Origin: an uncultured Rubritalea sp.
GTDB taxonomy: Bacteria; Verrucomicrobiota; Verrucomicrobiia; Verrucomicrobiales; Akkermansiaceae
Direction: 5' to 3'
Length of the DNA: 64,000 nt
Assembly (NCBI GenBank): GCA_937923145.1
Contig: CALAJT010000036.1
Span: forward strand, 1-64,000
Shown: in pieces, positions 35,501 through 46,635 of the stretch
Layout of the letters: the number at the start of each line of letters is the position of its first letter
How positions within the stretch are numbered: position 1 is the stretch's first letter
Notes under the pieces: generated by a model
Seen by the model: only the letters and a program-made list of their open reading frames with translations
Told to the model about the DNA's origin: nothing
Databases searched by the model: none
Position numbers and translations under genes: made by a program

Positions 35501-36369
35501 ACCAATCTCTCCGCGAGCTAGCAGAATACATCGACTGGACTCCATTCTTCCACGCATGGGAACTCCGCGGAGTATGGGACAGAGAGACCAAAGTCCTCAA
35601 AACAAGAAATGCCGAAGCCGCAGTAGTGGCACAACAACTCTACGAAGACGCAATCGTCTTACTAGAGCAAATCATCACTGAAAAGAAATTCACAGCTAAT
35701 GGCATCTACGGATTCTTCCCAGCTTACGCAGATGGAGACGACATCATTCTCCCCGAAAATGACGCCACCTTCCACACCCTCCGCCAGCAAAACGCCAAGA
35801 CCAACAACAACCAAAACCCACACTGGGCACTCAGCGACTTCGTCTCCACAGATAAAGAAGCTAAAGACCACGTAGGGAGTTTTGTTGTCGGAATCAATGG
35901 TGCTGACGAATGGGCAGCAGACCTCAGAGCCAAGCACGAGCTAGACTCCGCCATCATGGTGCAAGCCATCGGCGACCGCCTAGCAGAAGCCTTCGCCGAG
36001 CTACTCCACCACCGTGCCAGAATCGCATGGGGAATCGAGCGTCCTGGACAGTTCAACAACAACGAACTCATCAAAGAAATCTACCAAGGCATCCGCCCTG
36101 CCCCCGGCTACCCAGCCCAGCCAGACCACACAGAGAAAATCACCCTCTTCAAGGTCCTCAACGCCACCGAAAGCACCGGCGTAGAACTCACCGAGTCCTG
36201 CGCCATGCACCCCGGCTCAGCCGTCTCCGGACTCCTATTCTCCCACCCAGACTCCAAATACTTCGCCCTAGACAACCTCCAAAAAGATCAGATCGAAGAC
36301 TACGCCAAGCGTAAAGAATGGGATATCGATACAGCTGAGAAATGGCTCGGACCTTGGTTGGGGTATTAA
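32530..36369 (+). CDS. metH: Cobalamin-dependent methionine synthase
   Basis: Transfers the methyl group of methyltetrahydrofolate to homocysteine via cobalamin. All four modules are present in 1279 residues: homocysteine/zinc domain with C277, C342 and C343 ([16 protein letters not shown]); pterin-binding barrel (about 365-640, starting [13 protein letters not shown]); cap and B12-binding domain (about 690-930) with the cobalt ligand H816 in [10 protein letters not shown]; and the reactivation (AdoMet) domain to the end ([12 protein letters not shown]). Length matches the family. The coding strand becomes C-rich and G-poor toward the 3' end, continuing into hsdR. The 73-base upstream spacer is too short for a cobalamin riboswitch. 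Confidence 0.97.
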
Positions 36370-36482
36370 GAATAGAAGGGGTTTCCAAACTCCTTGTCAA
36401 ATCATCTTCAAGACAAGCTAATTAAGCTTTAATCTTTAAGCTAAAACCTTATAGTCCTATTGTTACCCGCAATATCCACTAT

Positions 36483-39400
36483 ATGCCGCCTTCAGACTAC
36501 ACATACGACAAACAGTTAGATAGCACTATATCTGTAGTCAAGGAACAGGACATCGAATACGGATTCATCGGTACTCTCCAAGACCTTAAATATACCTATC
36601 GTAAAGATATCCGTGACCGCCAAGCCCTCGAAGCTAACTTCCGTGAAAAGTTTAACCAGCTCAACGCCGTCACCCTGTCCGACAGCGAATTCGGCCGCCT
36701 CCTCGCTCAGATCACTACACCAGACGTCTATCAGGCCTCTGAGACTCTCCGCACACGCAATGGCTTTGAGCGGGACGACGGCACACCGTTGAACTTCACC
36801 CTCGTGAATATCAAGGACTGGTGCAAGAATGACTTCGAAGTCGTCAACCAGCTCCGCATCAACACCCGCAGCAGCTTTCACCGCTATGATGTCATCATCC
36901 TCATCAATGGCATTCCCTGCGTCCAGATAGAGCTTAAGACACTCGATGTAGACCCTCGCCGCGCCATGCAGCAGGTTGTCGATTACAAGAAAGACCCTGG
37001 CAATGGCTACACTAACACTCTCATGTGCTTCATGCAGCTCTTCATTGCCAGCAACCGCACTGACACGCGCTACTTTGCCAACAACAATAACGAGCACTTC
37101 GCCTTTGATGCAAAGGAAGTCTTCCTTCCCGTTTACCGCTGGGCAGATCGGGATAATGCCCCCATTCCCCATCTCAATCGCTTTGCTGAGACCTTCCTCC
37201 CTAAGTGCACCCTCGGTCACATGGTCAGCCGCTACATGGTGCTCGTCGCTAGTGAGAAGAAAATGCTCATGATGCGTCCTTACCAGATCTATGCAGTGCA
37301 AGACATCGTCAAATGCATCGAACAAAACAGCGGCAACGGCTTCATCTGGCACACCACCGGCAGTGGTAAGACACTTACCTCATTCAAGGCTTCCACCCTT
37401 CTAAAGCACAACCCAGACATCGATAAATGCCTCTTCGTAGTCGACCGCAAAGACCTCGACCGACAGACTCGTGAGGAATTTAATAAATTTCAAGAAAACT
37501 GTGTGGAGGAAAACACCAATACCCACACCCTCGTCCGCCGCCTCCTCTCAGACGACTACGCAGATAAGGTCATCGTCACCACCATCCAGAAACTCGGCCT
37601 CGCTCTAGATGAAACCAGCAAACGGAACCAAGGCAGAAAGGAACGCAATAAGCAGACCTACAAGGAAATCCTCACTCCTATCTCTGACAAACGTATCGCC
37701 ATCATCTTTGACGAGTGCCACCGCTCACAGTTCGGAGAGAGCCATCAGGCGATTAAGAATTTCTTCCCACAGTCCCAGCTCTTCGGCTTCACCGGAACCC
37801 CCATCTTCCAGGACAACTCCACTGCCAAACAGATCGATGGAGAAGTCGCTACGCTAAAGACCACCGAGGACACCTTCCAGCAAGAGCTGCATAAATACAC
37901 CATCACTCACGCTATCGAAGACAAGAACGTCCTCAAGTTCCATGTCGACTACTTTAAACCAGAAACCACAGGCAACACCCCACCTCCTAAATCTGGCGAA
38001 CCACTCGCAAAGCAAGCTGTCATCGAAGCCATCCTCAGCCAGCACGACCAATGCACTGCCAACCGCAAGTTCAACGCCATTCTCGCCACCGCCTCCATCA
38101 ATGACGCCATCGCCTTCTACGAGCTCTTTCAGAAAATACAGCAGGAGAAACAAGCAGCCGACCCCGACTTCAAGCCCCTCAATATCGCCTGCGTTTTCTC
38201 TCCACCCGTGCCTCCCAATCCTAAGGACAAAAACGGCAAAGACATCAAGCAACTCCAAGAAGACTTAATTCAAGAAAGCCAGGATAACCAAGAGCAACCC
38301 AACGAGAAAAAGAAAGCCCTCGAAGCCATTCTCAAGGACTACAATGCCAACTTCGGCACCAATCACCGCCTCAGCGAGTTCGATGCCTACTACCAAGATG
38401 TCCAAGACCGCATCAAGGCTCAGAAATTCCCACTAGCAGACCTCCGTGCAGCCCAGCCAAAGGCAAACGCACACAAGATCGATATCACCATCGTCGTCGA
38501 CATGCTACTCACTGGATTCGACTCGAAATACCTCAACACCCTCTACGTTGATAAAAATCTCAAATACCACGGACTCATCCAGGCCTTCTCGCGCACCAAT
38601 CGCATCCTGAATGACTCCAAGCCCCACGGCCACATCCTCGACTTCCGCCAACAGGAGGACAATGTCGATGATGCCATCAAGCTCTTCTCTGGAGAAAAGC
38701 AAAAGGAAGAAGCCGCTAAAATCTGGCTAGTCGAAGCCGCTCCCGTCGTGATAGAGAAACTCGGCACCGCCGTCCAGCAGCTAGAGGACTTCATGAGCTC
38801 CCAAGGTCTCACCTGTGCTCCCGAAGAAGTGCCCAAGCTCAAAGGCGATGCCGCCCGTGCCCAGTTCATCAAGACCTTTAAAGAAGTCCAGCGCCTCAAA
38901 ACCCAGCTGGATCAATACACCAGCCTCGCACCCGAGCAAAAGGCAGCCATAGAAGAAGCCCTGCCACTCAACACTCACCGAGCATTCAAGGGCGCCTACA
39001 TCGACACTGCTCACAAGCTCAAGAAGCAGCGTGACAGCGAAGACCCTGCCACTCTATCACCAGAGATCGATGACCTCGACTTCGAGATGGTCCTCTTCGC
39101 CTCCGCCACCATTGACTACGACTACATCATGGAACTCGTCGCCAAGGCAGATGGACAAGCCCCAGGCAAGGAAAAGATGACCCGTGAGCAGCTCGTCTCC
39201 CTCATCGCCTCAGACGCCCAGTTCGCAGATCAGCGTGATCTCTTAGAACAATACATCAACCAGCTCGACCTCGGCCAAGGCCGCTCCAAGGATGACATCG
39301 TCAATGGTTTCCAGACCTTCAAAACCAAAGCAGGCAATCAGCGACTCAAAACCATCGCCCAAACTCACCAGCTCGCACCCGATTCCCTCAACGACTTCGT

Positions 39401-39584
39401 CGAGGAAATCCTCAACCGCCACGTCTTCGACGGCCAACTCCTCACCGACCTCATGGCACCACTAGAACTCGGCTGGAAAGCACGCAGTAAAGCGGAGCAC
39501 TCTCTGATGAAGGAGCTGGTTCCTCTGTTGAATCAGCGAGCGGGCGGACAGGAAATCTCGGGACTGGCTGGATACGGAGAGTAG
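36483..39584 (+). CDS. hsdR: Type I restriction enzyme R subunit
   Basis: Motor and nuclease subunit of a type I restriction-modification complex. The N-terminal nuclease shows the PD-(D/E)xK end E150-x-K152 (CVQIELK) with the acidic residue upstream in RYDVIIL. The translocase has Walker A TTGSGKT with K296, DECH at 410-413 (IIFDECHRSQFGE), and motif III FGFTGTP. A C-terminal helical region binds HsdM. Length 1033 is normal. The gene order is hsdR, hsdS, three accessory genes, hsdM, which differs from the usual contiguous hsdM-hsdS. Codons are C-rich (CTC, GCC, ATC), unlike the AT-rich accessory genes that follow. Confidence 0.95.
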   Translation: MPPSDYTYDKQLDSTISVVKEQDIEYGFIGTLQDLKYTYRKDIRDRQALEANFREKFNQLNAVTLSDSEFGRLLAQITTPDVYQASETLRTRNGFERDDGTPLNFTLVNIKDWCKNDFEVVNQLRINTRSSFHRYDVIILINGIPCVQIELKTLDVDPRRAMQQVVDYKKDPGNGYTNTLMCFMQLFIASNRTDTRYFANNNNEHFAFDAKEVFLPVYRWADRDNAPIPHLNRFAETFLPKCTLGHMVSRYMVLVASEKKMLMMRPYQIYAVQDIVKCIEQNSGNGFIWHTTGSGKTLTSFKASTLLKHNPDIDKCLFVVDRKDLDRQTREEFNKFQENCVEENTNTHTLVRRLLSDDYADKVIVTTIQKLGLALDETSKRNQGRKERNKQTYKEILTPISDKRIAIIFDECHRSQFGESHQAIKNFFPQSQLFGFTGTPIFQDNSTAKQIDGEVATLKTTEDTFQQELHKYTITHAIEDKNVLKFHVDYFKPETTGNTPPPKSGEPLAKQAVIEAILSQHDQCTANRKFNAILATASINDAIAFYELFQKIQQEKQAADPDFKPLNIACVFSPPVPPNPKDKNGKDIKQLQEDLIQESQDNQEQPNEKKKALEAILKDYNANFGTNHRLSEFDAYYQDVQDRIKAQKFPLADLRAAQPKANAHKIDITIVVDMLLTGFDSKYLNTLYVDKNLKYHGLIQAFSRTNRILNDSKPHGHILDFRQQEDNVDDAIKLFSGEKQKEEAAKIWLVEAAPVVIEKLGTAVQQLEDFMSSQGLTCAPEEVPKLKGDAARAQFIKTFKEVQRLKTQLDQYTSLAPEQKAAIEEALPLNTHRAFKGAYIDTAHKLKKQRDSEDPATLSPEIDDLDFEMVLFASATIDYDYIMELVAKADGQAPGKEKMTREQLVSLIASDAQFADQRDLLEQYINQLDLGQGRSKDDIVNGFQTFKTKAGNQRLKTIAQTHQLAPDSLNDFVEEILNRHVFDGQLLTDLMAPLELGWKARSKAEHSLMKELVPLLNQRAGGQEISGLAGYGE

Positions 39585-39586
39585 TG

Positions 39587-39618
39587 AATTAGGAATTTTA
39601 AATTAAGAATTAGAAATT
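39587..39618. repeat. Left copy of a 32-bp inverted repeat flanking the hsdS-yhcG block
   Basis: This segment and the reverse complement of 43364-43395 match at 27 of 32 positions, including a perfect 11-bp block AATTAGGAATT at the outer end. It starts just after the hsdR stop codon and its end overlaps the TTG start of hsdS. See the right copy before hsdM. Confidence 0.7.
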
Positions 39619-40825
39619 GAAAACAGCACAGACATTACAGCCGCAATTGAGGTTTCCTGAGTTTGAGGATGATGGGGATTGGATACATGAAAAACTTGGT
39701 TCTCTGACAACCTGTCACAACAATGCTAGAAGGCCAATTACTGCAATTAATAGAGTTAAAGGTAGTGTTCCTTATTATGGAGCTAGTGGAATAGTAGACT
39801 ACGTAAATGACTTTATTTTTGACACCCCAAAACTATTAATCGGTGAAGATGGAGCAAAATGGGGTTCTTTCGAGTCCACCGCATTTATTGTAAAGGGAAA
39901 ATATTGGGTCAATAATCACGCACATGTTTTTAGTTCTTTAGAGCTCGAATTACGATTTATTGAGAACTATTTGGTGATGCTTGATATTGCGCCTTTCGTC
40001 ACTGGCGCCGCTCCACCTAAATTAACTTTGGATAACGTCAGGCGTATTCCAATACCATGTCCTCCTTCTGAGCCTGAACAACAAAAAATCGCCGATTGCC
40101 TAGGTTCCTTGGATGAACTGCTCACCGCTCACCGCAGCAAGCTCACCGCCCTCCAAGACCACAAAAAAGGCCTCCTCCAACAACTCTTCCCCCCCGAAGA
40201 CCAAACCACCCCCAACCTCCGCTTCCCCGAGTTTAAGGATGATGGGGGTTGGATAGCTACAGCGCTTAAGGATGTTTTTTCTATTTTTCAAGGATACGCA
40301 TTTTCAAGTAACGACAGCTGTAACTCAGGTGCTAGGTGGCTTAAAATCGCTGATGTTGGAATTCAAAAGATGAGCCCTTCAAGCCCATCCTTCCTCCCTG
40401 AAGGTCATACAAAGGAACACAGTAGGTTTATAGTTTCAGCTGAAGATCTCGTCGTCGCCTTGACCCGCCCCTTTTTAGATCACGAGCTTAAAATCGCAAA
40501 AGTTGATTCAATATATGATGGAGCTCTACTAAATCAAAGAGTCGGCAAAATACTCCCAAAAGAAAAATCTGATTTCGTATACTATCTTCTACAAACATCA
40601 CGTCTCACCTCTGCCATCGAAAAACAAATCTCAGGAAATGACCCTCCAAATTTATCCTCTTATCAGATTGAAGACATCGAAACTCTTATTCCTAAGCCCA
40701 ACGAACAACAAAAAATCGCCGACTGCCTCAGCGATCTAGACGCCCTCATCACCGCCGAAACCAAAAGCATCGAAGTCCTCCAAACCCACAAAAAAGGACT
40801 CATGCAACAACTCTTTCCACAGTAA
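39617..40825 (+). CDS. hsdS: Type I restriction enzyme specificity subunit
   Basis: DNA-recognition subunit, 402 residues, shared by the methyltransferase and restriction complexes. Two target-recognition domains (about residues 14-150 and 205-350) alternate with helical conserved regions ending in HKKGLLQQLFP and HKKGLMQQLFP. Each recognition domain opens with the same peptide (LRFPEFEDDGDWI, LRFPEFKDDGGWI), and each spacer helix opens with EQQKIADCL, showing internal duplication. The start is a TTG inside an inverted repeat. Recognition domains are AT-rich while the conserved helices are extremely C-rich, which indicates mosaic ancestry. Target sequence cannot be deduced. Confidence 0.94.
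   Translation: MKTAQTLQPQLRFPEFEDDGDWIHEKLGSLTTCHNNARRPITAINRVKGSVPYYGASGIVDYVNDFIFDTPKLLIGEDGAKWGSFESTAFIVKGKYWVNNHAHVFSSLELELRFIENYLVMLDIAPFVTGAAPPKLTLDNVRRIPIPCPPSEPEQQKIADCLGSLDELLTAHRSKLTALQDHKKGLLQQLFPPEDQTTPNLRFPEFKDDGGWIATALKDVFSIFQGYAFSSNDSCNSGARWLKIADVGIQKMSPSSPSFLPEGHTKEHSRFIVSAEDLVVALTRPFLDHELKIAKVDSIYDGALLNQRVGKILPKEKSDFVYYLLQTSRLTSAIEKQISGNDPPNLSSYQIEDIETLIPKPNEQQKIADCLSDLDALITAETKSIEVLQTHKKGLMQQLFPQ
39659..40255 (+). repeat. First direct-repeat pair inside hsdS
   Basis: A 27-bp segment at 39659-39685 recurs at 40229-40255 with two mismatches, marking the start of each target-recognition domain, 570 bp apart. Homologous recombination between the copies, or with other hsdS alleles, would exchange a recognition domain. 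Confidence 0.8.
40076..40728 (+). repeat. Second direct-repeat pair inside hsdS
   Basis: A 26-bp segment at 40076-40101 (encoding EQQKIADCL) recurs at 40703-40728 with one mismatch, at the start of each conserved helix, 627 bp apart. Together with the first pair it brackets each recognition domain. Confidence 0.8.
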
Positions 40826-40828
40826 TTT

Positions 40829-41917
40829 ATGCCCGAACTAAATGACATAGCCCAAACTTTGCTTTCGGGTGAACAAAACATTCAACTTATTTATGCATTT
40901 AATAGCACAGGCAAAACCCAGCTTTCGCTAGCATACAAGGATTTGACAAAAGACGAGGAAGGAAATCATGTAGGCGTTTATTACAATGCTCTTAGTGAAG
41001 ACCTTTTCACCTGGGATAATGGAGATGATAATGACGAAGGAAAAATCAAGCTTCTAGTAAAAGAAAGTAGCCTAAACAGCTTTCACGGCTTCCTAAACGA
41101 GGAGAACCTTGAACAACACCTTGAAAGGTTTAAATTTAACTTTGATTACCGATTTAATCAACATGAAGACTCTGAAAAAGGCATTCAATCCATTGAGTTT
41201 TCTGAACGCTCTGACAATCCTGATACCGAACGAAAAACGATCAAAGTATCTCGAGGTGAGGAACGAATCTTTTTATGGTGCTTTTACCTTAGCCTATTCG
41301 AAGTTGAGGAATTGGCGGACAATCAATCTGAGCATATTTTTATAGACGATCCAGTATCTAGTTTAGACGACCATAATATCTTCATCACAGCATCTACTAT
41401 TTTTGACCTTATTGAAAAACACTACGAAGATCGAAAAATCATTTTAACGACTCATCACATGGGGCTCTTTTCCATCCTAAGTGATTGGCTCAGAAAAGGA
41501 GAATTAAGTTCTAAACTGAAAGGTAAATACAAGATGCATATACTTTCAAAAAAATCAGGAGAAGTCAAATTAGAGACCTGCCGGAAAGATGTTTTCCTCT
41601 ATCACCTTAGGTTGCTTCAAGTTTTAGAAACGGCACGCAGACAAAACGACCTAAGAGCCTTCCATCTAGCACTACTACGACAAGTTCTGGAAAATATATC
41701 GTCTTTCTTGGGTGTAGGTCGTGTAAGTTACGTCTTAGAACAAATAGGAATAGATGATGCCAATAGAGTTACCAATATTGTAAATAGCCTCTCTCACAAA
41801 AATATCTACTACTATGAAAGTGACGATCTCGTCTCAGACAATGAAGAAATGCTAATAGAAATTTTGGACAAACTTATGATTAAATATGAATTTGTCCTCC
41901 ATCTGCCGAGAACCTAA
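40829..41917 (+). CDS. PrrC/RloC-like ABC-ATPase with candidate anticodon-nuclease domain
   Basis: A 362-residue protein encoded between hsdS and hsdM, the genetic setting of PrrC. The N-terminal part is an ABC-type ATPase: Walker A-like AFNSTGKT with K29 (first Gly of the motif is Ala), signature-like VSRGEE, Walker B plus D-loop HIFIDDPVSSLD, and switch histidine in ILTTHHMGL. The C-terminal 120 residues contain R284-x3-E288 and H323 in NSLSHKN; the spacing of Arg-4-Glu-35-His is close to the nuclease triad of PrrC (R320, E324, H356 as I recall it). There is no long coiled coil, so it is PrrC-sized rather than RloC-sized. Proposed role: RNase held silent by the restriction complex. Function is inference. 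Confidence 0.7.
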   Translation: MPELNDIAQTLLSGEQNIQLIYAFNSTGKTQLSLAYKDLTKDEEGNHVGVYYNALSEDLFTWDNGDDNDEGKIKLLVKESSLNSFHGFLNEENLEQHLERFKFNFDYRFNQHEDSEKGIQSIEFSERSDNPDTERKTIKVSRGEERIFLWCFYLSLFEVEELADNQSEHIFIDDPVSSLDDHNIFITASTIFDLIEKHYEDRKIILTTHHMGLFSILSDWLRKGELSSKLKGKYKMHILSKKSGEVKLETCRKDVFLYHLRLLQVLETARRQNDLRAFHLALLRQVLENISSFLGVGRVSYVLEQIGIDDANRVTNIVNSLSHKNIYYYESDDLVSDNEEMLIEILDKLMIKYEFVLHLPRT

Positions 41918-42183
41918 TAATCCATGAACTTCACCCAGCTCATCACCGATCTCCGCGACCTTGACGGCTCACTAAAGAGCCACGTCAAGCAATCGGCGAA
42001 CATTGGGCTGACGTTACGGAATTGGTTCGTGGGTGCTTACATTGTGGAATTTGAACAGAATGGAGATGAGCGGGCAGAATATGGCACTAACCTTATTAAA
42101 GAAGTAGCCAAAAACCTCCAAGTAAGCGGATTACACCCCACCAATCTGGAGCTTTGCCGTCGTTTATTTCTAGAATACCCCTC

Positions 42184-42210
42184 AATTCCACAGACACTGT
42201 CTGTGGAATT
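42184..42210. repeat. In-frame palindrome P1 in the truncated DUF1016 gene
   Basis: Perfect inverted repeat, arms AATTCCACAGACA and TGTCTGTGGAATT around one C. The centre is the first base of CTG codon 92. It encodes PQTLSVEL. Confidence 0.9.
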
Positions 42211-42226
42211 AGACCATACCGCAAAG

Positions 42227-42251
42227 ATTCGACAGACGCTGTCTGTCGAAT
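42227..42251. repeat. In-frame palindrome P2 in the truncated DUF1016 gene
   Basis: Inverted repeat with 11-bp arms ATTCGACAGAC/GTCTGTCGAAT and a 3-base centre; centred on the first base of CTG codon 106. It encodes RQTLSVEL. Relative to P1 a C:G pair is changed to G:C in both arms, keeping the pairing. Confidence 0.9.
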
Positions 42252-42357
42252 TGAATTCATTCCTCTCTCAGATTCCACGAGTCATTCAGAACTCTCTGAA
42301 GAATAGATGTGAAATTCAACCTGTCACACACATACAATCCCGAAGTCCCCAAACGCT

Positions 42358-43365
42358 ATGAGCGAAAATGTAACTAACAACCATTTCTTCACCGAGGTTC
42401 GCCAGATTCTCGATCAAGCCCGAAGCAAGACGGTTAAAGCCGTAAACTCGGCGATGGTGGAAGCCTATTGGCTGATAGGGAAGCGGATCGTAGAGGAGGA
42501 GCAAGGTGGCGAGGATAAAGCGGAGTATGGCAAAGAAACAGTAAAGCACCTATCTCAATACCTCTCAAAGGAGCTTGGCAGAGGATTCTCAGTAGCAAAC
42601 CTCTGGAACATGCGTCAATTTTATTTAACTTATGGGAAAGAGGACTTTCTCTACGCACTGCGTAGAGAATTAAGCTGGACACATCACCGCACTATTATGC
42701 GAGTAGAAGACTCCCAAGCTCGCCAATACTACCTCTCCGCTTGTGCTAAAGAAAACTGGAGTTCAAGAGTATTAGAACGCCAAATCAGAACCAACACCTA
42801 CGCGCGTATTCTAACGAATAAAAAGCACAAGACTAACCTGTCAGAAGAAAGCCAATCAACTACGGGAGCTTCAAAACTGGATCTCCTAAAAGACCCCTAT
42901 GTGTTAGAATTTCTAAACCTCCCAGAGGATCCCAGTGTTCGAGAAAAAGATCTTGAAAGTGCACTGATCAATGATCTGCAAAAATTTCTCCTTGAACTGG
43001 GAGGAGGCTTTTCCTTCGTCGCTCGTCAAATGCGAATCAGCACTGAAACCAGCCATTTTTACTTAGATCTAGTTTTCTATAACTATCTACTCAAGTGCTT
43101 TGTCGTTATCGACTTAAAAACGACTAAACTCGCTCACCAAGATATTGGGCAGATGGACATGTATGTCCGTATGTTTGATGATCTCAAGCGCGGTAAAGAT
43201 GACAATCCCACTATTGGTCTCATCCTCTGTGCGGACAAAGATGAAGCAATGGTTAAATATTCCGTGCTTAGCGAAAGTGAGCAACTCTTCGCCTCCAAAT
43301 ACCGAACCATTCTTCCAACGGAAGAAGAACTCATAGCGGAACTCGAACGCAAACTCATCGAGTAA
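42358..43365 (+). CDS. DUF1016 / YhcG-type PD-(D/E)xK nuclease
   Basis: Intact 335-residue member of the DUF1016 family. The N-terminal domain (about 1-140) includes YWLIGKRIVEEEQGGEDKAEYG and RGFSVANLWNMRQFY, then the ELSWTHHR block. The C-terminal nuclease fold (about 215-335) shows the catalytic strand FYLDLVFYNYLLKCFVVIDLK, giving D-x-E/D-x-K-like residues with IDLK, and a conserved DIGQMDMYV helix. Family members occur next to type I restriction genes in many bacteria, but their job there is not settled. It overlaps the upstream truncated homologue by four bases. Palindrome P3 lies inside it at the position equivalent to P1/P2. Confidence 0.87.
   Translation: MSENVTNNHFFTEVRQILDQARSKTVKAVNSAMVEAYWLIGKRIVEEEQGGEDKAEYGKETVKHLSQYLSKELGRGFSVANLWNMRQFYLTYGKEDFLYALRRELSWTHHRTIMRVEDSQARQYYLSACAKENWSSRVLERQIRTNTYARILTNKKHKTNLSEESQSTTGASKLDLLKDPYVLEFLNLPEDPSVREKDLESALINDLQKFLLELGGGFSFVARQMRISTETSHFYLDLVFYNYLLKCFVVIDLKTTKLAHQDIGQMDMYVRMFDDLKRGKDDNPTIGLILCADKDEAMVKYSVLSESEQLFASKYRTILPTEEELIAELERKLIE
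42647..42669. repeat. In-frame palindrome P3 in the intact DUF1016 gene
   Basis: Perfect 11-bp arms TTCTCTACGCA/TGCGTAGAGAA around one C, again the first base of a CTG codon (codon 101). It encodes YALRREL, ending just before the SWTH block. Confidence 0.9.
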
Positions 43366-43395
43366 TTCCTAATTTTTAATTCCTAATTCCTAATT
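43364..43395. repeat. Right copy of the 32-bp inverted repeat, before hsdM
   Basis: Three tandem AATTCCTAATT-type units between the yhcG-like stop codon and the hsdM ATG. Its reverse complement matches 39587-39618 at 27 of 32 positions. The repeats bracket hsdS, the PrrC-like gene and both DUF1016 genes (3.8 kb). Confidence 0.7.
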
Positions 43396-43399
43396 TCCC

Positions 43400-45034
43400 A
43401 TGTCTACAGAACAACAAAAAGAACTCGGTAAAATCCTCTGGAACATCGCAGACCAGCTCCGCGGTGCGATGAGTGCGGATGACTTCCGTGACTACATGCT
43501 CTCCTTTCTCTTCCTCCGCTATCTTTCAGATAACTACGTGGAAGCAGTGAAGAAAGAACTCGGCAGCGACTACCCAGAGCAAGGCGAAGGCCTCCGCTTC
43601 ACCCCACTCAAGACTTGGTATGAGGAAAACGAAGCAGATATCCCAGACTTCGAGCAACAGATGCGACTCAAGGTGCACTATGTGATCCAGCCAAACTTCC
43701 TCTGGAGCCACATCGCCGAAATGGCACGCACCCAAGATGAGGAACTCCTCACTACCCTGCAAGCGGGCTTCAAATACATCGAAACCGAATCATTCCAAAG
43801 CACCTTCAACGGTCTCTTTTCCGAAATAAACCTTGGCTCAGAAAAGCTGGGTAAAAACTACTCTGCGAGAAACAAAAAGCTGGTCAACATCATTAGTGAA
43901 ATAGCAAAAGGGCTAGAACAATTCTCCACCGATCGTGATGCTCTAGGCGATGCCTACGAATACCTGATAGGGCAATTCGCAGCTGGCTCAGGCAAGAAAG
44001 CTGGCGAGTTCTACACTCCACAACAGATTTCTAACATACTCTCCGCTATCGTCACTCTCGATAGCCAAGAGCCTAAAGAGGGCAAGCGCAAGAAACTCGA
44101 CAAGGTGCTCGACTTTGCCTGTGGCTCAGGCTCCCTGCTCTTAAACATCCGAACCCAAATCGAGCAAGCTGGTGGAACGATTGGTAAAATCTACGGGCAG
44201 GAAAAGAACATCACCACCTACAACCTCGCCCGCATGAATATGCTCCTTCACGGAGTCAAGGATGCCGAGTTTGAGATCTTCCACGGAGACACTCTAGATA
44301 ATGAATGGGACACATTCCAAGAGGAAAACCCAGCGAAAAAAGCAGTCTTCGATGCCGTGGTTGCGAATCCTCCTTTCAGCCTACGCTGGTCACCAGGAGA
44401 AGAAACAGCCAAAGACATCCGTTTCAAAAACCACGGAGTTGCGCCTAAGTCAGCCGCTGACTTCGCCTTCCTCCTACACGGCTTCCACTATCTGAAAGAC
44501 GATGGGGTCATGGCTATCATCCTCCCTCACGGCGTCCTCTTCCGTGGCGGCGTAGAAGCCAAGATCCGTAAAAAGCTCCTCGATGATGGACACATCGACA
44601 CCGTCATTGGTCTCCCTGCTAACCTATTCTATTCTACTGGTATCCCCGTCTGTATCCTCATACTAAAGAAGTGTAAAAAACCTGATGATGTTCTCTTCAT
44701 CAACGCTAGTGAGCACTATGCCAAAGATAAACGCCAAAACCGCCTTCAAATCGGTGAGGATGGGGAACCTGATGATATCAAAAAAATCATCGAAACCTAC
44801 ATAGAACGCCCCAAAGAAATCGAACGCTACGCTCGTCGAGTCGAGATGAAAGAGATCATCGAAAACGACTACAACCTCAACATCACCCGCTACGTCAGCA
44901 CTGCCAAGCCCGAGCCGATTATCAACCTAAAGAAAACCCATTCAGATATCGTAGCAGCAGAAAAAGACATCCGTAAGATGACAGACAAACACAACAAATT
45001 CCTCAAGGAGCTAGGACTGCCACCACTACCTTAG
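43400..45034 (+). CDS. hsdM: Type I restriction enzyme methyltransferase subunit
   Basis: N6-adenine methyltransferase subunit of the type I complex, 544 residues. Motif I (AdoMet binding) is VLDFACGSGSLLLNI starting at 236, and motif IV is NPPF at 323-326. The N-terminal helical domain (LWNIADQLRGAMSADDFRDYML, LFLRYLSDNY) binds HsdS and DNA. The C-terminal tail is coiled coil. It lies last in the cluster, separated from hsdS by three accessory genes, and its start follows an inverted repeat. No Shine-Dalgarno; expression presumably needs its own promoter within the AT-rich repeat or read-through. Confidence 0.96.
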   Translation: MSTEQQKELGKILWNIADQLRGAMSADDFRDYMLSFLFLRYLSDNYVEAVKKELGSDYPEQGEGLRFTPLKTWYEENEADIPDFEQQMRLKVHYVIQPNFLWSHIAEMARTQDEELLTTLQAGFKYIETESFQSTFNGLFSEINLGSEKLGKNYSARNKKLVNIISEIAKGLEQFSTDRDALGDAYEYLIGQFAAGSGKKAGEFYTPQQISNILSAIVTLDSQEPKEGKRKKLDKVLDFACGSGSLLLNIRTQIEQAGGTIGKIYGQEKNITTYNLARMNMLLHGVKDAEFEIFHGDTLDNEWDTFQEENPAKKAVFDAVVANPPFSLRWSPGEETAKDIRFKNHGVAPKSAADFAFLLHGFHYLKDDGVMAIILPHGVLFRGGVEAKIRKKLLDDGHIDTVIGLPANLFYSTGIPVCILILKKCKKPDDVLFINASEHYAKDKRQNRLQIGEDGEPDDIKKIIETYIERPKEIERYARRVEMKEIIENDYNLNITRYVSTAKPEPIINLKKTHSDIVAAEKDIRKMTDKHNKFLKELGLPPLP

Positions 45035-45055
45035 TATCATTGTATTAATAAAATT

Positions 45056-45244
45056 ATGGACTCATCAGAACAAGGTATCGTCTATGTCCTCACTAATCCT
45101 GTAATGCCTGGATTAGTCAAAATTGGTAAAACAAGCCGAGACGAAGTACAAACTCGACTCAACGAGCTCTATTCCACTGGTGTCCCTGTTCCCTTTGACT
45201 GTGCCTCCGCAGCAAGGGTAGAAGATGAATCCAAGGTAGAGTAA
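45056..45244 (+). pseudogene. Truncated GIY-YIG (T5orf172-type) nuclease gene
   Basis: Sixty-two residues matching the first half of the T5orf172/MUG113 GIY-YIG domain: GIVYVLTNPVMPGLVKIGKT, then RLNELYSTGVPVPFDCASAARV. Full members continue after the KVE segment with a histidine-containing helix and a catalytic glutamate. Here the frame stops immediately after KVE, and the stop codon is completed by the first bases of a 31-bp direct repeat. The missing half is not found downstream of the second repeat copy. Loss of the glutamate means it should have no nuclease activity. Confidence 0.75.
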
Positions 45245-45273
45245 ACCCGTTAAGGGACAGACCTTTTATTATT
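45243..45273. repeat. Direct repeat, left copy, flanking the CPBP protease gene
   Basis: 31-bp segment starting AAACCCG and ending in CCTTTTATTATT; matches 46605-46635 at 29 of 31 positions in the same orientation. It begins inside the stop codon of the truncated GIY-YIG gene. Confidence 0.85.
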
Positions 45274-45303
45274 TCTTAAGGCTCTCAAATAGCCTCCCAG
45301 CAC

Positions 45304-46596
45304 ATGCGAAGTTATAAAAAAACGGGCACAAGAAAAGTTTCCAGTATTTTACTCGGGATCGTCACTATTTGCTGGGTATATTCCTTAGTCTTTGGTTATA
45401 CGACTCCTCCCTACGCCAGCGAGCATAGCTTCGCCTTGCTTCGTGAAGCAGATGTTGAGCTTAGAGTCTCTCGTGAACTGGAAAATAAATCTGAGCTATC
45501 TAAAGTCCTCTTCAATTACAAGCCTACGGAAGAAGTTCTTGAAGAAATACTTGGCGAGTTTGAGAAAGGTATAGATGAAAATCTGTTGGATGATGAGGCC
45601 CTACTCGCTTACGAATACCTTAAGGCATGGCATACGCTAGATCCAACTCGCGTGGATACAAAAGTTCTGGAGCAGAATATGGAGGTCGACATTCTCTGGT
45701 CATGGGAAACCGAGGTTCTGAGGTTGTCTAAAAAATCATTCGATGAGGTTACAGAGCTAGCCTTGGAGTATGATCGTGATAGCGATGCATCTGTCTATCG
45801 CCTGTGTCTCTTGACTCCCTATCTATCCTTTAGCGTGTTCCTCATTGGTTTCCCTTTTATTGGACATGCACTGCGCACTTTTAATACGGCAGGAAAAGCG
45901 GAGGCTCGTCCCATCGTTGGGCAATGGAGCTGGCAAACGCTCTTAACGATTATCTTAGGAATTGGGTTAGTTGATACAAACATTTTCACCCTCACTTATC
46001 TCCTGCCCGATTCAATATGGATGCTAGCTCCAAATTTTTTCGAAATACTTGTAGATGGCGCATGGCGTTTTCTAATCCCTATTGTTTTAATCTTCTACTT
46101 TATAACCCGTTGGCGTCATGTAGCCCCGTTACTAGGTTTAGACACAGCACCTCAGCTAAAGCCCATATTAGGAATGATGAGCCTGGCATTGATCTATCAG
46201 GAAATCCTCTTTCGTATTTTTAATGCTTTAGGCAAAATCCCTTGGGCAACAATTTCAAGCACAGAGGATGGCGTAAGCGGGCTCATCTACGTTCTTCTTT
46301 CGGCAGTCATTTTTGCTCCCATCGCAGAAGAAATCATCTACCGAGCCTTTCTCTACCGTGGTCTTCGCAATCGATTTCCCTACAAATGGTCCATTGCTCT
46401 TTCCACGCTCTTCTTTGTGCTGATCCATTATTACGGATGGTATGGAAGCCTCTCCGTAGCTGCCTTTGGCATTTTAGCAGTTCCTCTCTACATAGCCACT
46501 CGCTCCCTTTGGACTCCCATCATTTATCACGCGCTAACCAATCTCCTCATTACAGCTTCCTCTTGGCCCCTATATCACGGTTTTTACTCGTTCTAA
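45304..46596 (+). CDS. CPBP (CAAX/Abi) family intramembrane metalloprotease
   Basis: Multi-pass membrane protein of 430 residues. Hydrophobic segments near 18-30 and 165-195 flank an acidic extracytoplasmic or cytoplasmic region (about 35-160) with no known motif, followed by a further membrane bundle. The metalloprotease signature is in the last third: E342-E343-x3-R347 (AEEIIYRAFLYRG), H375 in FVLIHYYG, and a final HALTN. Family members process prenylated proteins in eukaryotes and serve in bacteriocin immunity or abortive infection in bacteria. Its placement as a solitary gene between two direct repeats at the edge of a restriction locus suggests an acquired cassette. Start ATG; no Shine-Dalgarno. 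Confidence 0.88.
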   Translation: MRSYKKTGTRKVSSILLGIVTICWVYSLVFGYTTPPYASEHSFALLREADVELRVSRELENKSELSKVLFNYKPTEEVLEEILGEFEKGIDENLLDDEALLAYEYLKAWHTLDPTRVDTKVLEQNMEVDILWSWETEVLRLSKKSFDEVTELALEYDRDSDASVYRLCLLTPYLSFSVFLIGFPFIGHALRTFNTAGKAEARPIVGQWSWQTLLTIILGIGLVDTNIFTLTYLLPDSIWMLAPNFFEILVDGAWRFLIPIVLIFYFITRWRHVAPLLGLDTAPQLKPILGMMSLALIYQEILFRIFNALGKIPWATISSTEDGVSGLIYVLLSAVIFAPIAEEIIYRAFLYRGLRNRFPYKWSIALSTLFFVLIHYYGWYGSLSVAAFGILAVPLYIATRSLWTPIIYHALTNLLITASSWPLYHGFYSF

Positions 46597-46604
46597 TTTT
46601 CAAG

Positions 46605-46635
46605 AAACCCGCTAAGGAACAGACCTTTTATTATT
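46605..46635. repeat. Direct repeat, right copy, flanking the CPBP protease gene
   Basis: Second copy of the 31-bp repeat (29 of 31 positions identical), starting 9 bases after the protease stop codon. Confidence 0.85.

Follow-up and report, generated by a model that had tools for sequence, protein, structure and literature searches.

A predicted PrrC-type anticodon nuclease in a type I restriction operon belongs to a widespread PrrC clade with altered tRNA-recognition residues

Among toxins guarded by a restriction enzyme, the anticodon nuclease PrrC is the textbook example. Orthologues of the E. coli protein from Haemophilus influenzae and Streptococcus mutans have been reported to be active (PMC3014915), and PrrC170 from K. 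quasipneumoniae has been shown to deplete tRNA-Lys and stops the phages T1 and T7 (PMC11555353). According to PMC3014915, E. coli PrrC makes contact with the modified wobble base of tRNA-Lys through residue Asp287. The recognition region has been described as variable among PrrCs. The nuclease domains of PrrC and of RloC have both been assigned to the HEPN fold (PMC3710099). Here we describe a gene from a 64,000-nucleotide stretch of DNA, hereafter the window, that very probably encodes a PrrC-type toxin in which an ABC-type NTPase head would control a C-terminal, HEPN-like and metal-independent RNase. We compare it with 88 other PrrC proteins, with the operons that carry them and with the known systems to which it appears to be related.

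The type I restriction-modification (R-M) operon in the window runs in the order hsdR-hsdS-prrC-(yhcG)-hsdM with all of its genes on the + strand (Table 1). The three hsd genes were called from Pfam and PADLOC matches. HsdR matches EcoR124_C (1.1e-61) and HSDR_N (2.7e-33) and scores 1086 bits against the PADLOC model REase_I, HsdS matches Methylase_S in two stretches (1.2e-35), and HsdM matches N6_Mtase (1.6e-103) and HsdM_N (8.7e-23). The exact start of hsdS is uncertain, the list of open reading frames giving a TTG. The prrC gene shares the frame of hsdS and starts 3 nt past its stop, and the next gene begins 6 nt after prrC. Because the hsdS stop thus stands in frame one codon ahead of the prrC ATG, no upstream extension of prrC exists and an N-terminal truncation of the gene is ruled out. 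The initial annotation had described the gene as lying between hsdS and hsdM. It is indeed a member of a type I operon and adjoins hsdS, but hsdM is not the immediate next gene, as a DUF1016_N fragment and an intact YhcG-family gene stand between prrC and hsdM. The latter gene is cargo in the hsdS-hsdM gap.

Table 1. Coordinates of the operon genes, domains and associated features; positions that follow an L handle are those of related loci
Feature	Coordinates	Strand	Description
hsdR	36483..39584	+	type I restriction subunit, 1033 aa
hsdS	39617..40825	+	specificity subunit, about 402 aa
exchanged segment	40819..41921	+	homology by blastn ends at 40818 and resumes at 41922; junctions compared by sequence
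prrC	40829..41917	+	PrrC-type anticodon nuclease (predicted), clade 3, 362 aa, ATG start
ABC-ATPase head, residues 1-258	40829..41602	+	motif columns, Rad50-like model
C-terminal nuclease domain (predicted), residues 244-362	41558..41914	+	four-helix HEPN-like model
truncated DUF1016_N (YhcG-type) gene	41924..42361	+	Pfam DUF1016_N 6e-11
intact YhcG-family gene	42358..43365	+	DUF1016_N + PDDEXK YhcG_C (Pfam YhcG_C 3.4e-58)
hsdM	43400..45034	+	methyltransferase subunit, 544 aa
hsdM 5'-end copies	L139 11205-11360, 12345-12430; L025 7203-7290; L035 2605-2741		
hsdM 5'-end copies, further	L064 7071-7107; L079 6755-6836		
YhcG guests	window 42358-43365; L064, L070, L079, L083, L086, L087		

The PADLOC model for PrrC covers residues 3-356 of the product (E=7.6e-98, 326 bits, with the next family at 41 bits), and the gene is therefore already recognised by an existing defence-gene model and represents a known system type. 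Pfam assigns AAA_13 only, and no PrrC-specific family was found for the protein in searches of Pfam or NCBIfam. Its match in PHROGs is the unnamed family phrog_23661 (2.2e-37), and a search of phage records gave no match. As a reference we used an E. coli gene annotated as 'anticodon nuclease' (L096:4902-6092, 396 aa) together with the E. coli PrrC residue numbers from PMC3014915 and PMC2610378. Since D222, D287, R320, E324 and H356 are all found at their published numbers, the L096 product is of the E. coli PrrC type, and the window protein is 31% identical to it over 341 columns. The initial annotation had pointed to a triad formed by R284-x3-E288 and S322-H323, and the alignment bears this out, with R284, E288 and H323 standing at R320, E324 and H356 of E. 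coli PrrC. Conservation of the triad among homologues had been named as one of two points on which the proposal would stand or fall; the three columns are invariant in 89 of 89 PrrC proteins, a set used for both alignment and tree that consists of 17 members of clade 1, 10 of clade 2 and 62 of clade 3, as defined below. The spacing between the Glu and the His is 35 in the window protein, 32 in E. coli PrrC and 32-36 across clade 1.

The ATPase head carries a Walker A motif (N25-STGKT), a signature (K139-x-SRGEE), a Walker B and D-loop stretch (I172-DDPVSSLDD) and an H-loop (T208-HH). The elements GKT, S-RGEE, IDDPVSSLD and TH are conserved in the PrrC alignment, with the core Walker A, Walker B and linchpin His residues invariant in all 89 proteins and the signature nearly so. 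The block Y51-YNALSEDLFTWDN in the head is near-invariant in this alignment and is likely the counterpart of the PrrC box, a 15-residue motif of the N-domain named in PMC2610378 and PMC3014915, beside which we set it by the description of the box only. The head had earlier been described as a complete ABC ATPase save for an altered Walker A glycine. The NTPase motifs are kept, but the alteration turns out to be none: residue S26 stands at G43 of E. coli PrrC, in a column that holds Ala in 36, Ser in 13, Gly in 10 and Thr in 3 of the 62 clade-3 proteins, while 88 of 89 PrrCs, including that of E. coli, have Ala in the 'first glycine' column of Walker A. An inactivating lesion of Walker A was rejected, as S26 is typical of clade 3.

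AlphaFold2 was run for the window protein on 51 window and locus sequences. The full-length model (pLDDT 86, pTM 0.78) is free of coiled coil, and its residues 1-258 resemble the ABC heads of Rad50/SMC proteins (5da9, Z 12.9, rmsd 3.3, 215 residues). The C-terminal domain, residues 244-362, was also modelled alone with a pLDDT of 87. A plain Foldseek search with this domain alone gave no significant match. In VIA-align comparisons, HEPN proteins account for six of the seven best rows (7ae6, 7ae8, 7ae9, 8xeh, 2hsb and 3o10), with Z values of 4.9-6.9 over 96-104 of the 119 residues, a Z below 8 being weak alone for a helical domain. These HEPN-specific matches agree with the published assignment of the PrrC and RloC nuclease domains (PMC3710099). 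In the model, R284 and E288 lie in helix 277-293 and H323 closes helix 311-323; in HEPN proteins these predicted positions are those of the acidic residue and the motif His. The four-helix fold of HEPN proteins is thus present in the predicted model, and of the HEPN Rx4-6H motif the His is kept and the position of the Arg is occupied by N316; HEPN families that lack this Arg are on record (PMC3710099). Searches of PDB sequences by phmmer and by profiles found no PrrC structure, just weak matches to ABC and Rad50 proteins. The check on the fold that the initial annotation had asked for is consequently favourable in so far as a model can tell, and its PrrC-like nuclease candidate is upheld by homology to PrrC over the full length, by the triad, by the HEPN-like predicted fold and by the hsd operon.

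A maximum-likelihood tree divides the 89 PrrC proteins into three clades, whose mutual order we do not claim because long branches separate them. Clade 1 includes E. coli PrrC and shows the order hsdM-hsdS-prrC-hsdR where this was seen. Clade 2 contains the K. quasipneumoniae plasmid relatives of PrrC170 and has the order hsdR-hsdS-prrC-hsdM. Clade 3 consists of the window protein and 61 others (support 100/100), nearly all of their loci being arranged as hsdR-hsdS-prrC-hsdM. PrrC170 itself is placed in clade 2 by way of its relatives, given its species, the arrangement of its operon genes and an identity of 35% to E. coli PrrC reported for it (PMC11555353), a value that is the same for its relative L097. 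At least one hsd gene adjoins prrC in all 75 of the 75 relatives taken from named genomes. Clade 3 was sampled in nine phyla (Pseudomonadota, Bacteroidota, Verrucomicrobiota, Cyanobacteriota, Nitrospirota, Bacillota, Spirochaetota, Bdellovibrionota and Campylobacterota). The closest match of the window protein is a Pseudoduganella protein (61% identical), and within the phylum of the window a search of 289 genomes found a PrrC in 8. In a further genome of the same genus (G317; L017/L100), the operon hsdM-...-prrC-yhcG-hsdR encodes a clade-1 PrrC, so that all three clades are present in one genus. The tested PrrCs in the literature searched comprise E. coli-type orthologues and one clade-2 member only, and we know of no tested member of clade 3. 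Clade 3 is therefore a widespread and apparently unstudied branch of PrrC.

The recognition residues set clade 3 apart from the other PrrCs. The Asp287 column holds Asp in 16 of 17 clade-1 and 7 of 10 clade-2 proteins versus 1 of 62 in clade 3, where it is mostly Asn or Lys. The window protein has K253 at this place and, judged by Asp287 and region 284-303, would fall outside the tRNA-Lys-reading sub-type. Arg349, which forms a HEPN-type R-x6-H with H356 in E. coli PrrC, is Arg in 9 of 62 clade-3 proteins versus 27 of 27 other PrrCs (N316 in the window), and no other conserved basic residue occurs in clade 3 (n=62) within 12 residues upstream of the catalytic His. Directly after this His the window protein has K324, in a column that is Lys or Gln in 56 of the 62. 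The column of Lys325, which follows the catalytic Glu, is Asn in 55 of 62 clade-3 proteins, T326 of E. coli PrrC is also replaced, and H295, H315 and N352 are retained. Our reading of these columns is that the RNase would be kept in clade 3 but that the holding and reading of the RNA would be changed. Most of the clade has other residues in place of the wobble Asp, the post-Glu Lys and the HEPN-type Arg, so that clade-3 PrrCs probably do not read their preferred tRNA in the way in which tRNA-Lys is read, and their target possibly is not tRNA-Lys. For the window protein the replacement of Asp287 and Arg349 means that lysine-tRNA specificity should not be assumed. A PrrC clade with recognition residues altered in this way looks new.

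These same columns bear on the strongest rival explanation, in which the window PrrC is active and guarded by the R-M complex but cuts an RNA other than the anticodon of tRNA-Lys, such as a different tRNA, a tRNA region outside the anticodon or an mRNA. This overlaps with the PrrC-type toxin explanation, which leaves the target open. It is favoured by the near loss of Asp from the Asp287 column and by the additional replacement of K325, T326 and R349, and a review holds that substrates may differ where the recognition region differs. However, the triad and H295, H315 and N352 are all retained, Asp254, which lies one column off beside a two-residue alignment gap, could substitute for Asp287, and PrrC170 still targets tRNA-Lys although it is merely 35% identical to E. 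coli PrrC (PMC11555353). On balance we give a different RNA a chance that falls a little short of even.

A PrrC-type toxin could also have lost its activity. Three near-invariant places are altered in the window protein alone (L55, G65 and F103), Q31 is a rarer residue, and on the tree the tip branch of the protein measures 0.53 versus 0.28 for its nearest relative. The private changes and the longer branch make a weakened function possible, and together with the truncated DUF1016 fragment that is the next gene they could be taken to indicate a decayed, inactive PrrC whose remaining role in the R-M complex is structural. Such decay is unlikely given that the reading frame is full-length, that all catalytic and NTPase core residues are kept, that the Walker A Ser is typical of the clade and that the structure model is good.

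The same operon is found in another genome of the genus (G325), elsewhere in that genome and with a clade-2 PrrC in the prrC slot. Between the two operons HsdR is 96.9% and HsdM 97.4% identical versus about 30-34.5% for PrrC, and DNA identity is 93% over hsdR and its leader and 91-92% over hsdM. In hsdS, DNA identity to G325 is 95% in the constant region 40076-40234 and 91.5% in the constant region 40701-40818, and the target-recognition domains differ. The start of the DUF1016_N gene matches the G325 gene that follows prrC at 96% identity over 158 nt. Homology ends in the last hsdS codons and returns immediately ahead of the next gene's start codon, with no blastn match to G325 in between. 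Among same-clade pairs whose HsdM proteins are at least 90% identical, PrrC identity is at least 84% (15 pairs, mean 90%), which places the ~30% of the window and G325 PrrCs far outside the norm. Comparable cases are a P. distasonis plasmid (L010) versus B. ihuae (L056), with HsdR 84%, HsdM 88% and PrrC 41% identical by local alignment, and G450 versus three clade-3 loci, with HsdM 89-90% and PrrC 32-35% identical. The labels of clades 2 and 3 shift seven times on the HsdM tree, five of these shifts being forced by supported branches, versus once on the PrrC tree. At least five changes of clade on the HsdM tree indicate that prrC has been exchanged like a cassette. The two operons whose HsdM is closest to that of the window each have a clade-2 PrrC, so the window's clade-3 gene is probably a newcomer. 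HsdS may also contribute, as the sister operons differ in its recognition domains too. The literature searched contained no description of PrrC clades replacing one another within a single operon backbone, and such exchange looks new; a related idea is that of the campylobacter 'restriction-linked orfs', which are cited in PMC2610378.

Both genomes are drafts, of 53 and about 110 contigs, with the G325 locus split over two of them, and an artefact of assembly or binning could thus be suspected. In each genome, however, hsdR-hsdS-prrC lies on a single contig together with the beginning of the gene that follows, and the breaks fall exactly at gene ends. The incongruence moreover recurs between L010, a finished plasmid, and L056 and between L139 and L027, L028 and L031, and with the label changes that the HsdM tree demands an artefact becomes very improbable.

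The R-M operon as a whole looks to have moved horizontally. Its homology to G325 starts at the metH stop (36366) and ends ~143 nt past hsdM, and over this stretch (36366-45177) the identity is 91-93%, at a different genomic place in G325, versus only 80% for the flanking core gene metH. The gene that comes next after the operon, at positions 45243-46621 (by eye a CPBP-type membrane protease), is 92% identical to contig C49 of G325, which is far above metH and marks a second recently shared segment beside the R-M operon.

Relatives with extra genes often have copies of the hsdM 5' end (37-156 nt, 78-96% identical) in the prrC-hsdM gap. These sit mostly right past the prrC stop, as if cargo had been inserted by duplication of the hsdM start. 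Such an insertion was rejected for the window, where the extra genes are present but no such repeat is. YhcG (DUF1016/PDDEXK) guests recur at varied positions in prrC-carrying type I operons, and the truncated DUF1016_N gene of the window holds copies of a QTLSVEL peptide. At the same place after prrC, G325 has the start of a gene, and the C-terminal part of a YhcG protein heads its contig with hsdM, so that a longer gene split by the contig end is likely. Short AATTCCT tandem repeats lie between operon genes of the window (43363-43399 and 39585-39618) and are also placed at L124 (about 590-630 and 970-1060); they are longer in G325, and short matches occur elsewhere in the genus.

By analogy with E. 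coli PrrC and PrrC170, the window PrrC would be silent while bound to HsdRMS. A phage that blocks or misleads the restriction enzyme would free PrrC, the freed protein would undergo NTP-driven activation, and a cut in the anticodon loop of a tRNA would then halt translation; as a guess, the target tRNA would be a different one in clade 3. HsdR and HsdM proteins that are 97% identical to those of the window serve a clade-2 PrrC in G325, and for this reason the Hsd guard probably contacts features common to clades 2 and 3, for example the ATPase head. We tentatively propose, with more doubt than confidence, an exchangeable anticodon-nuclease slot in which one guard holds ~30%-identical PrrC clades that read different tRNAs, with tRNA-Lys not being the target of clade 3. 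If this were true, a lineage could switch its suicide target by gene exchange while leaving the guard as it is, in a manner that resembles the switching of DNA specificity via HsdS recognition domains, and clade 3 would form a large group of R-M-guarded RNases with a target other than tRNA-Lys. The presence of clade 3 in many phyla without the tRNA-Lys-reading residue raises the question of which tRNA is cut. As the sister operons differ mainly in the toxin and in the HsdS recognition domains, recognition of PrrC by Hsd proteins is open to testing.

For completeness, we set the window system beside the known ones. E. coli PrrC (EcoprrI, clade 1) likewise joins an ABC NTPase to a C-terminal nuclease with an R-x3-E...SH triad, has the YxNAxxEDLFxWxN block, is encoded beside hsdS in a type I operon and is devoid of a zinc hook. 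It differs in being about 31% identical and 396 rather than 362 aa long, in the operon order hsdM-hsdS-prrC-hsdR versus hsdR-hsdS-prrC-hsdM, and in Asp287, Lys325, Thr326 and Arg349, all of which are replaced in the window PrrC. The cloned order for PrrC170 is hsdR-hsdS-prrC-hsdM as in the window (PMC11555353), and clade-2 PrrCs of this type occupy the same slot in near-identical operons. The clade-2 protein from L097, a K. quasipneumoniae plasmid, is about 32% identical to the window PrrC, and clade 2 keeps Arg349 (10 of 10) and mostly Asp287 (7 of 10), whereas the window PrrC is without both. RloC from Geobacillus kaustophilus and Acinetobacter baylyi shares the ABC NTPase and an R-x3-E-x(36-52)-H arrangement, often with Ser before the His (PMC2610378), but carries a Rad50-like coiled-coil/zinc-hook insert and is rarely found in an R-M locus, unlike the window family, which lies in hsd operons and has no insert. 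That the window protein is itself an RloC or another AAA_13 defence ATPase of the PtuA/Septu type, as its Pfam label and the retron/Septu PtuA structures among the weaker fold matches of its model might suggest, is extremely unlikely, and RloC identity was rejected, because sequence and model of the 362-aa protein show neither a zinc-hook/coiled-coil insert nor a CxxC, the PADLOC PrrC model scores far above all others, a PtuB-type partner is absent and the gene sits in a type I operon. HEPN RNases such as the HEPN/MNT toxins 7ae6, 7ae8 and 8xeh differ from the window PrrC in a sequence identity of about 10% and in the Rx4-6H Arg that it is missing, yet they share the four-helix fold predicted for it, with a catalytic His that ends the motif helix and a conserved Glu in the preceding long helix.
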